A program made the translations under genes and the position numbers. From contig JAJTHM010000012.1 in NCBI GenBank assembly GCA_021297855.1, positions 1 to 57,590 of the forward strand: DNA of 57,590 nucleotides. Direction: 5' to 3'. This stretch comes from Sphingobacteriales bacterium. Lineage in GTDB: Bacteria > Bacteroidota > Bacteroidia > Chitinophagales > JADJOU01. Positions 45,334 to 48,616 of the stretch are shown piece after piece; positions within the stretch are counted from its first letter, which is position 1; each line of letters opens with the position of its first letter. The notes beneath the pieces were generated by a model, which saw only the letters and a list, made by a program, of their open reading frames with translations, ran no database searches and was not told the origin of the DNA.

Positions 45334-45414
45334 GAATTTAATATAAATTTTAATTTACAGATAATCAGAGAATTAAATTAATAACATTAAATTTTTAGCT
45401 AAATTTTAAAATTT

Positions 45415-45449
45415 GTCCGTAAATTTGTCCGTGTCCGCAAAAACGTCCG
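45415..45449 (+). repeat. Four GTCCG direct repeats with 12/6/12-bp spacing
   Basis: GTCCG occurs at 45415, 45427, 45433 and 45445. The offsets are 12, 6 and 12 bp. The first pair shares TTTGTCCGT and the second pair GTCCGCAAA. The last copy ends 3 bp before the start codon of the methyltransferase, whose N-terminal domain resembles a recombinase arm-type DNA-binding domain. The array is therefore a candidate binding site for it. Confidence 0.75.
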
Positions 45450-45452
45450 CAA

Positions 45453-47678
45453 ATGATAAATGTAAAATTCTATTTAGATAAAGCTGATAAAAGTAAAAAG
45501 TTTCCTATTCATCTTGTTATAAGACAAAAAGATATCCAAGTCAAGGTAGCGACAGGGGAGAAAATTTTTAAAAAAGATTGGGATAATAAAAATCAAGTTG
45601 TTAAGGATTCAGAGTATACTTTTAGGTCTATTAATAAGTTCTTATCTTTTCTAAAACAAGAGGTTGAAAAGTATTTTAATTCTGTACCTCATTCTCAATT
45701 TACAGATAAAAAAGTCAAAGAGAAGATTTTATCTTTAGTAAATAGTCGCAAAGTTAATACCGATGTAAAAATGGTTTGCGAAGATACATTTGAGTATGAA
45801 AGAAAAACAAAAATAACTTTTGTAGATTTATTTGCTGGTGCTGGTGGATTTAGTGAAGGTTTTTTGCAAGCCGAACACGGAAATAAATGTTACGATTTTT
45901 TATTAGGTAGTGATATTAATGAGAATTGCGAATTAACACATCTTGCTCGATATAACTATCAACTTGGAATGGATGCAGAGTTTTTGCGTCAAGATATTAC
46001 AGAACCTGATTTTTTAGATAATCTTTTAAAGAAGGTTAAGGATCACCCAATTGATGTTGTTTGTGGAGGACCACCTTGTCAAAGTTTTAGTTTAGCGGGT
46101 AAGCGTAAAAAATTTGATAAAAAGGATGATTTGTTTGCCCACTATTTAAATGTAATTAGGGTTCTTCGTCCCAAGTATTTTGTAATGGAAAATGTAAAAG
46201 GTATTCTTACAAAAGAGGGTGGAAAAATAAAAGAAATGATTTTACAAGAAATCAAATCAATAGTGGATTTGAAAGAATTTCATAAAATTATTCATTTTTT
46301 AGCAAAGCTTAAAAAAGCAGAAAAAGTAAAGGCATTTACTTTAGATTGTTACAATTTGAGGATGCAATTTGAATCAGCCAATGAAAAAGAGCTGGAGAAA
46401 TTGAGAGAAAATTATATTCAGATTATTGAAAATAAATTTCGTGTATTGACGCCTAAAATTGCTGATTACAAAACAAGTAAAACAGATATTAGTATTAATA
46501 CTATTCGTCACGGATTCAATTTATTAAAACGGAGTAAAGAGCTATCATATGTGAGAAAGAAAGTTATTTTGGAAAAGGCTCACAGTGATTTGGATAATGA
46601 TTTTTTTGCTGAAAAATTTGATTCTTTTTTAACTTCAATAGAGTCGGATTCAATTATTGAGCAAATCCATCAGGCTTTTAATAATTTAAATCCAGTAAAG
46701 GCATTTCAAAATGAAATAGCTGAAATAATTGGGGCTTTAGAAATCTATAATTACTCTTTCGAGGAATGTATTCAAGGGCTTAAACCTTTTGTTAAGGATT
46801 TAAAAGCAGAAGCAGAATTTGAAGAGATATTGTCGCATATTAGATTATACAATATTGACCAACCATTTGTGGCATTAGCTTCAAACTATGGAGTTCCACA
46901 AAACAGAGAAAGAGTTTTATTCATTGGCTGCCGCAAAGACCAGAAATTAGTTCAAGTGGTTCCACCAACAGTTAGCGAAAAGGAAAAAGTCACTGTTTTT
47001 GAAGCATTATATGATTTGGATTTTGTGGGCAATGATGATGAGAAATTTGATTATGAAAAAGTTGATTTAAAAGCAAAGTACAACGGTTCAACTCAAAAAA
47101 TGCAATCGCTAATAAAGAAAAGGACTATTGATGGAAAACCTGAAGAGAAAAAAGGCTTAACCTATGCTGAATGGTCTAAAAAGGGAAGATTGAACGGTCG
47201 ATTTACTAATGCCAAAAATCCTTTTTACGTTAGGAATTTTGAAGAATTGGAAAATACTTTGTCTCATATTGTTGCTCCATTGCACAATCATAAAACAAGT
47301 AAACAAAATGATGATGTGATAAAAAGACTGGGTGTGATCTTAAATACTGGCGATTACGATTTAGCAAAAAGAGAATTAAAAAAAATCGGCCTAGATTCTG
47401 AAAAAAGGAATTACAATGTTTTAAAAGCCGATTCGCAAAGTCCAACTGTAATGACGATTGCTGACGACTATATTCATTTCTCTAATCCAAGGGCTTTAAC
47501 AGTCCGTGAGATGGCACGTTTACAATCATTCGATGATTCTTTTGTGTTTCAAGGAAAGCGTTCGACTGGTGGAAGTAAAAGAAAATTTGAAGTTCCGCAA
47601 TTTACTCTAGTTGGAAATGCAGTTCCACCTTTAATGGCTAGAGCAGTTGCTTTAGAAATTCTAAAAAATATTGATTAA
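45453..47678 (+). CDS. DNA cytosine-5 methyltransferase with N-terminal recombinase-arm-like domain
   Basis: The protein is 741 aa. Residues 1-100 ('INVKFYLDKADKSKKFPIHL ... KVATGEKIFKKDWDNKNQVV') resemble the arm-type DNA-binding domain at the N-terminus of Bacteroidota tyrosine recombinases, but no recombinase catalytic domain follows. From about 122 the C5-methyltransferase motifs appear: I 'FVDLFAGAGGFSEGF', IV 'GGPPCQSFSLAGKR' (catalytic Cys about 209), VI 'ENVKG' (about 246), VIII 'QNRERVLFIG' (about 483), and the end motifs IX/X 'RALTVREMARLQSF' and 'VGNAVPPLMARAVA'. About 230 mostly helical residues lie between motifs VI and VIII, far more than usual. It methylates cytosine to protect DNA from the neighbouring endonuclease. 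The sequence is AT-richer than the flanks and probably horizontally acquired. Confidence 0.88.
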   Translation: MINVKFYLDKADKSKKFPIHLVIRQKDIQVKVATGEKIFKKDWDNKNQVVKDSEYTFRSINKFLSFLKQEVEKYFNSVPHSQFTDKKVKEKILSLVNSRKVNTDVKMVCEDTFEYERKTKITFVDLFAGAGGFSEGFLQAEHGNKCYDFLLGSDINENCELTHLARYNYQLGMDAEFLRQDITEPDFLDNLLKKVKDHPIDVVCGGPPCQSFSLAGKRKKFDKKDDLFAHYLNVIRVLRPKYFVMENVKGILTKEGGKIKEMILQEIKSIVDLKEFHKIIHFLAKLKKAEKVKAFTLDCYNLRMQFESANEKELEKLRENYIQIIENKFRVLTPKIADYKTSKTDISINTIRHGFNLLKRSKELSYVRKKVILEKAHSDLDNDFFAEKFDSFLTSIESDSIIEQIHQAFNNLNPVKAFQNEIAEIIGALEIYNYSFEECIQGLKPFVKDLKAEAEFEEILSHIRLYNIDQPFVALASNYGVPQNRERVLFIGCRKDQKLVQVVPPTVSEKEKVTVFEALYDLDFVGNDDEKFDYEKVDLKAKYNGSTQKMQSLIKKRTIDGKPEEKKGLTYAEWSKKGRLNGRFTNAKNPFYVRNFEELENTLSHIVAPLHNHKTSKQNDDVIKRLGVILNTGDYDLAKRELKKIGLDSEKRNYNVLKADSQSPTVMTIADDYIHFSNPRALTVREMARLQSFDDSFVFQGKRSTGGSKRKFEVPQFTLVGNAVPPLMARAVALEILKNID

Positions 47679-48616
47679 AGTCCGAAATAAGATAAAGGAT
47701 TATTTCCTGTCAAATGAGGAATTGCTGCTCTAATATCTGTTCTTAATGTTGTTCTTGAGCCAGATTGAAAATTATTTGTAAAAATTTCTTTTAAAGATTT
47801 TGCAACATTTTGAACAGTTGGTTGGCCCCAATAATTTCCGCCCGATAAATTTGTTACTCGTTTAACTGCAACACCATCGGGTTTATAAACAGTATTTTGA
47901 TTAGAAGGAACTGTAACAAATGAATAAGTAAAGCTTTGAGCATTTTGGATATTGTAACCATTTTTACCTATTGTTATGTTTCTTCCACGAAAACCGCCAG
48001 CAGAATAAATCATATCCCAAAGCATTGGAACTTGTGCGTTATCATTCCAATTTGTTTTGCATTGAATAATACCTATCTCAAATTGATGAAAGTCTCTTGC
48101 AGATATATAATTTGAAAAGTCAATGTTGAACTTGTTTCTAATGATTGAAGGAATTTGAACTCCATTATTGTCAAGCACATTCAATTGTGCAATATCAGTA
48201 TTGTATTCAGGTAAATTTGGAAAAATAATTATGGTAATATCTGATTCTGTATTACACGCAAAATTACCATAATTTACTGTGATTGCATCTTGTATGGACT
48301 TCGGTACTAAACTCATTTTTTTAATAGCTACAATTCTGCTCCCGACACAACAAAGGTTAATATACCAACAAACTAATGATTCCCAAGCTGTTCCTCCTGC
48401 TGACAATTCACCTTGTCCCCTTCCGCCACCACCTGTAGATTTAAAAATATCAGATAGGTGATCACCTAAATTAATAATTTCATTTTCACTGTAATTATTG
48501 CCTAGTAGCCTATTGATTTCAGGATGCCAAGTCTGCCAGCAATTTTGAAATGTATTTGTTTTGAAAATATTCTCAATAGCTAATTTTCTAAATTGGTCTG
48601 GAATGGTATTATACAT
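47675..48616 (-). CDS. Type II restriction endonuclease (PD-(D/E)xK), partner of the C5 methyltransferase
   Basis: The 313-aa protein has no recognisable family name to me. A plausible PD-(D/E)xK core is 'NTESDITIIIF' followed later by 'QFEIGIIQCKTNWNDNAQVPMLWDMIYSAGG' (Glu, then Q-C-K as the E/Q-x-K). 'GGGGRGQGELSAGGTAWESLVCWYINLC' in the first third looks like a conserved core helix of restriction enzymes. It converges on the methyltransferase gene with a 4-base overlap of the stops, a common R-M arrangement. The cognate sequence is unknown. No control (C) protein gene is visible. Confidence 0.75.
   Translation of the reverse strand: MYNTIPDQFRKLAIENIFKTNTFQNCWQTWHPEINRLLGNNYSENEIINLGDHLSDIFKSTGGGGRGQGELSAGGTAWESLVCWYINLCCVGSRIVAIKKMSLVPKSIQDAITVNYGNFACNTESDITIIIFPNLPEYNTDIAQLNVLDNNGVQIPSIIRNKFNIDFSNYISARDFHQFEIGIIQCKTNWNDNAQVPMLWDMIYSAGGFRGRNITIGKNGYNIQNAQSFTYSFVTVPSNQNTVYKPDGVAVKRVTNLSGGNYWGQPTVQNVAKSLKEIFTNNFQSGSRTTLRTDIRAAIPHLTGNNPLSYFGL

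Follow-up and report, generated by a model that had tools for sequence, protein, structure and literature searches.

Among the DNA methyltransferases (MTases), several are known to control their own synthesis. M.SsoII represses its own gene by means of its N-terminal domain (PMC6100179), which is a helix-turn-helix (HTH) (PMC3978073); M.Ecl18kI also represses itself with an HTH, and M.EcoRII, M.MspI, M.ScrFIA and M1.LlaJI have likewise been listed as self-regulating (PMC6100179, PMC3978073). A comparable form of control has been described for an integrase: in the prophage KplE1, IntS acts from sites in attL to repress the gene that encodes it, and one of these, the arm site P'1, overlaps its −10 box (PMC2951348). 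Here, we analyze a stretch of 57,590 nucleotides from a Sphingobacteriales bacterium (contig JAJTHM010000012.1; hereafter the window), in which the open reading frame (ORF) at 45453-47678 on the forward strand encodes a cytosine-5 DNA methyltransferase (C5-MTase) that begins with an arm domain of the kind found in integrases. Arm domains bind arm-type sites, and an array of short direct repeats lies immediately in front of this gene. We hold it quite probable that the protein is the self-regulating C5-MTase of a Type II restriction-modification (R-M) cassette, in which an integrase arm and its sites have been captured and serve as autorepressor and operator.

With M.SsoII and M.Ecl18kI the protein shares the general plan of a C5-MTase with an added N-terminal region and, to judge by its partners, a CCNGG-type target; as with M.SsoII, there is a regulatory site at the gene's own promoter that is distinct from the methylation site, although here it is recognized by sequence only. 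The difference lies in the means employed, since M.SsoII uses an HTH on a 15-bp palindrome, whereas here there is an integrase arm fold and a set of direct repeats spaced by 12 bp. A Pfam scan of the arm-MTase protein up to an E-value of 10 gave no HTH match. Because no HTH was found and the putative operator is a direct repeat, the enzyme would be like M.SsoII in its proposed function and would not be of the M.SsoII type by membership. A partial likeness of GTCC...AAATT...GTCC to the M.SsoII operator, AGGACAAATTGTCCT, was dismissed as a coincidence, a palindrome read by an HTH being compared with a direct repeat that faces an arm. The IntDOT-like integrases of the Bacteroidota that carry PF17293 have a homologous N-terminal arm and 12-bp-spaced repeats just upstream of their ATG; they differ in their core-binding and catalytic domains, which are replaced here by the C5-MTase, and in the sequence of the repeats, which here is GTCCG. 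The likeness to IntS is the autorepression, here proposed, from sites that overlap the promoter, whereas IntS is itself an integrase, which works with core-type sites and the TorI factor, and in the present protein the arm has no recombinase attached to it. The elements of the locus are as follows.

45414-45449, forward strand: putative operator of four direct repeats resembling arm-type sites (repeat finder; conserved upstream of relatives).
45420-45427, forward strand: TAAATTTG, an exact copy of the Bacteroidota −7 element TAnnTTTG, between repeats 1 and 2.
45453-45692, forward strand: integrase-type arm DNA-binding domain, MTase residues 1-80 (PF17293, hhalign, predicted fold, and the ratio of nonsynonymous, dN, to synonymous, dS, divergence).
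45693-45797, forward strand: linker with a helix (model residues 85-103), residues 81-115, between arm and MTase (model).
45798-46259, forward strand: C5-MTase catalytic part, residues 116-269, with motifs I, IV and VI (Pfam and motif positions).
46260-46877, forward strand: insertion of ~200 residues between motifs VI and VIII, residues 270-475 (motif spacing, Pfam scan).
46878-47678, forward strand: C5-MTase C-terminal part, residues 476-741 and stop, holding motifs VIII and X and presumably the region that recognizes the target (Pfam and motif positions).
47675-48616, reverse strand: putative PfoI-like Type II restriction endonuclease of the CCGG family, 313 aa, convergent with the MTase gene (predicted fold, active-site order).

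The reading frame of the MTase gene is intact from its ATG, and the 741-aa product matches the Pfam DNA_methylase family (E 2.9e-51). The C5-MTase motifs follow one another in the regular order: I, FAGAGGFSEG at 127; IV, GGPPCQSFS at 205; VI, ENVKG at 246; VIII, QNRERV at 483; and X, GNAVPP at 721. In a Pfam scan the protein matched neither Phage_integrase nor a SAM-like domain, unlike the integrases of loci L097, L099 and L117; it belongs to the C5-MTase family, carries a bona fide PF17293 domain and is not a member of the integrases. The insertion between motifs VI and VIII is kept throughout the arm-MTase family, and its residues 270-475, put through a Pfam scan of their own, had no significant match and no known domain.

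The N-terminus scanned alone matches PF17293 (Arm-DNA-bind_5) over residues 9-77 with 27.4 bits (E 4.8e-6), and the score of the whole protein, 22.3 bits, is slightly below the curated cut-off of 22.6 bits. Because one such borderline match is weak evidence, relatives were collected, these being the best 80 of 149 confirmed loci in a scan of reference genomes, with a comparison set of 77 intact coding sequences of 735-762 aa. PF17293 is matched by the N-termini of 58/60 relatives at E<=1e-3 (best 2.4e-11), and when the profile of the MTase arms was compared by hhalign with 14 arm domains from Bacteroidota integrases the two aligned over 76 columns (99.5%, E 3.1e-23). Moreover, a profile built from the MTase arms only, when run on other genomes, recovers tyrosine integrases with frames of ~400-440 aa (best E 2.3e-14). 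The predicted topology of the arm is beta-beta-beta-alpha (strands E3-8, E17-25 and E28-38, helix H57-77), with a predicted local distance difference test (pLDDT) score of ~90 there, and it agrees with the PF17293 fold of a three-stranded sheet with a helix after it. Foldseek returned no match for the model of this small domain, and such an absence is not evidence. The profile comparisons identify residues 1 to ~80 as a genuine integrase arm. The preliminary description of this DNA had recognized both the look of such an arm and a complete C5-MTase with motifs I, IV, VI, VIII and X, and on both counts it was right; the N-terminus does match recombinase arms, and the clade to which it belongs is not unrelated to the integrases.

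A search for the same fusion elsewhere, which that description had suggested, yielded 77 intact relatives with the same architecture, and chance or an assembly chimera is therefore ruled out as the origin of the fusion. These relatives are 58-92% identical where full length, which nearly all are, and all are Bacteroidota where their titles are informative. Against close relatives among the 77 intact sequences, dN of the arm is ~0.04-0.08 at a dS >1.5, which indicates that the arm is under purifying selection. In 149 genomes of the class, the MTases that come next share only 39-47% identity, limited to part of the domain, and lie in frames of 252-467 aa, and hence the arm carriers form a distinct MTase family; a whole clade of Bacteroidota MTases carries the fusion, which is old. 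Among the records of the phage and plasmid collections none extends over 80% of the query, and the matches listed there begin at query residue 95 or later, so that they take in the MTase domain and miss the arm. On plasmids, the homologue that comes nearest (Stenotrophomonas, 40%) was considered as a case of the same system and rejected, its neighboring gene being of the GHKL type. No description of an arm-C5-MTase fusion was found in the literature searched, a search that had REBASE and InterPro outside it.

The junction between the two parts is informative. In the integrases L097, L099 and L117 the core-binding (SAM-like) domain begins at residue 103-111, and the MTase domain begins at about residue 116, a matching position. 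Because the MTase starts where the integrase core-binding domain would start, the fusion amounts to a clean domain swap. The preliminary description had envisaged the capture of a MTase into an integrase gene, and this fits the fusion point as well as the co-captured upstream repeats discussed below, with the proviso that the event is old.

The array in front of the gene had gone unremarked in that description. It consists of TGTCCG at 45414-45419, 45426-45431 and 45432-45437 and CGTCCG at 45444-45449, with spacings of 12/6/12 bp, and directly before the ATG it reads TGTCCGTAAATTTGTCCG-TGTCCGCAAAAACGTCCG. Its first repeat pair is present in 75/77 upstream regions of relatives; four copies are found in 61/77 and the first pair alone in 12/77. 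Conservation in these upstream regions is 1.86 bits per column within the array versus 0.45 in the flank, and the array is kept before the ATG though the flanks are unrelated, even where dS exceeds 1.5. A pattern search of the bacterium's own 3.1-Mb genome, allowing <=1 mismatch, found only the two repeat pairs of the putative operator, and the long form of the pattern occurs in 2/296 genomes of the phylum. The consensus of Bacteroidota promoters has TAnnTTTG as its −7 element (PMC2483708, PMC4747536), and an exact TAnnTTTG lies between the first two repeats in 69/75 relatives, with a TTG 19-20 nt upstream of it, at the −33 position, in 52/75. The folding of the RNA at the start codon (z −1.0) gave no hint of a riboswitch-like leader. 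The pattern also turned up in viral contigs as 12 exact 17-mers, which we take as chance, there being no arm-like ORF starts downstream. The claim of a second, site-specific DNA contact in the preliminary description thus acquires a candidate target, at the level of sequence, in the GTCCG array.

DNA homology to loci L008, L009, L011 and L012 runs from the array to the MTase stop (45405-47678 in the window; 45405-47672 for L008). The array looks as if it were the left edge of a mobile unit, and the compared loci have different neighborhoods.

The relationship between arms and upstream repeats can be examined in the integrases themselves, and 64 Bacteroidota integrases with a PF17293-type arm, some of them truncated, were used for this. 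In 20/64 of their upstream regions an 8-mer recurs exactly, as a direct repeat, 12 bp further along, versus 0.0 in dinucleotide shuffles and only 1/183 upstream regions of neighboring genes; the loci that have such 12-bp-spaced repeats include L097, L099, L101, L115, L117, L120-L122, L142 and L147. The repeats sit just 5' of the start codon, and their sequences differ between integrases and from GTCCG. Among the integrases the similarity of the arms tracks that of the repeats (Mantel rho 0.57, 0/2000 permutations), and it is one and the same integrase, L097, that has the best-matching arm and the repeat of greatest similarity, TGTCAGTAAATGTGTCAGTAA. Possibly, 12-bp-spaced repeats before the ATG of Bacteroidota integrases are a general signature of arm-type sites and of their specificity. 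The simplest reading suggested by these sequences is that the arm came, by inheritance or by capture, along with its arm-type sites. Short arm ORFs of ~125-225 aa (L111, L126, L131, L134, L138-L140) were considered as stand-alone regulators and set aside, as they look like truncated integrases.

The mechanism that we propose would have begun with the joint capture of an integrase arm and of the arm-type repeats found in front of integrase genes of this kind. In it, the arm would bind the GTCCG direct repeats, one monomer per repeat, beside and over the −7 element; as the enzyme accumulates, it would cover the promoter and repress its own gene and, where a nuclease gene lies downstream in the same orientation, that gene as well. 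The C-terminal part would methylate a CC(N)GG-type site and so protect against the partner nuclease. The arm homology, the conserved operator-like array, the promoter element inside the array and the paired nuclease are results of computation. We consider it fairly likely that the arm and its sites are a working repressor-operator pair and that the operator-MTase block is the constant core of a Bacteroidota cassette, to which CC(N)GG nucleases unrelated to one another can be fitted almost interchangeably.

The partner genes are diverse. As expected of a Type II R-M system, a putative restriction endonuclease gene adjoins the MTase gene; its product in the window has no Pfam or PADLOC match. 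Its model (pLDDT 79; predicted template modeling score, pTM, 0.85) matches PfoI best (6eko, Z 14.9 over 231 residues), followed by AgeI (8.9), Ecl18kI (8.8) and PspGI (8.6). The conserved residues E79...E124xD126...K187 stand in the same order as the unusual E113...E167xD169...K187 of PfoI, so that fold and active site in the model both point to a PfoI-like enzyme; it is, however, ~10% identical to PfoI, and in the recognition-motif region that follows the catalytic lysine, where the window has K187-TNWND, there is no clear arginine counterpart of R-(D/E)R and the R-x-K-E motif is not evident. The pairing with a PfoI-like nuclease is seen in 16 relatives. In most relatives, by contrast, the partner is a co-oriented MvaI/BcnI nuclease (the single one that was scanned has a Pfam E of 6e-74); in two it is an EcoRII-C nuclease, and others have GmrSD-type or unassigned genes. 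MvaI/BcnI enzymes have known targets of the CCNGG type, PfoI cuts T|CCNGGA, and the sites of PfoI and EcoRII are also of the CCNGG type. Because these three kinds of nuclease all act on CCWGG, CCSGG or CCNGG-containing sites, the target of the arm-MTase is, by analogy, likely to be of the CC(N)GG type. On the MTase tree (L008-L087 and the window) the nuclease type changes 29 times, versus a mean of 27.9 with shuffled labels, and hence the partner is exchanged freely, as if at random. For example, the MTase of the window is 92% identical to that of L008 over the MTase part, and the partner in L008 is MvaI-like; loci with the same nuclease as the window align through the nuclease gene too, unlike L008.

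Other genes accompany the cassette. A gene for an HhH-GPD DNA glycosylase of ~220 aa adjoins it in L028, L034, L041, L051, L054, L055, L062, L085 and L087, and a role as T:G repair partner for deaminated 5-methylcytosine is plausible. Two unassigned genes (~380 and ~360 aa) lie 3' of the MTase in L011, L012, L037, L049, L064, L074 and L075; the ~380-aa gene has a weak GmrSD_N match, and the pair often precedes an MvaI/BcnI nuclease gene.

Other explanations of these observations must be considered. That the N-terminal PF17293 match is weak or spurious could be argued from the whole-protein score, slightly below the cut-off, and from the searches of the PDB, which yielded no arm structure; the profile comparisons have already refuted this, since nearly all of the relatives match, the hhalign alignment is strong and the MTase-arm profile recovers integrases, and we give the idea virtually no credence. 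The arm might serve mainly to target or tether the MTase, so that its own locus or specific sites are modified first, with any control of transcription being incidental. An arm domain is after all a site-specific DNA contact, and the array adjoins the R-M locus in nearly all relatives; tethering, however, has no need of a −7 element placed exactly between the repeats, as it is in 69/75 relatives, and the genome has no further arrays, which makes this unlikely. A distinctly unlikely alternative is that array and arm are relics or working parts of a mobility system, the repeats marking the edge of the cassette and the arm helping an integrase in trans to mobilize the R-M unit. The homology between loci that is bounded by the array and the MTase stop (L008, L009, L011, L012), the different neighborhoods that the cassette occupies and the resemblance of the repeats to integrase arm sites would all suit such a view, but the protein has no catalytic recombinase domain, no matching array is seen at the other end, and mobility is not needed to explain why the arm is under purifying selection or why the geometry of the promoter is conserved. 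Finally, the array could be the operator of some other host or phage regulator, with the arm used for dimerization or protein contact, inasmuch as binding of the array by the arm is deduced by us; this is highly unlikely, since organisms from different families have the array and the arm together and integrases with the same domain have repeats of the same geometry in the same place.

Several points nonetheless weigh against a self-regulating arm-MTase. Searches of the PDB by fold and by sequence, with the arm model and profile, gave no convincing integrase-arm match. We infer from sequence the binding of the GTCCG repeats by the arm, the repression that would follow and the methylation target; and shared ancestry can partly account for the covariation of arms and repeats among the integrases. 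The window's own copy has the −7 element but no clear −33 TTG, and the strength of its promoter is therefore uncertain. No GTCCG-type array lies upstream of the convergent nuclease gene, so that direct control would be confined, in the convergent arrangement, to the MTase. One lineage (L014, L092, L194; G394 C10, C76) seems to have an insertion element with TGTCTCGTCCT ends between the array and the ATG, and there are contig breaks at these loci; since the element seems to separate the two in L014 and L092, the link between array and gene would not be absolutely required.

To judge from the sequences collected, the arm-MTase design recurs across many Bacteroidota with interchangeable nuclease partners. 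If the self-regulation proposed here is true, arm domains, which have been regarded as integrase components, can be separated from these enzymes and put to use, together with their sites, as regulators of transcription. It would also mean that a second, unrelated DNA-binding fold has been recruited for the self-repression of a MTase, again one with an apparent CC(N)GG-type target. The array provides a directly testable candidate operator for the control of R-M systems in the Bacteroidota, and the 12-bp repeats upstream of the integrases of this phylum are suggested to be a readable signature of arm-site specificity.
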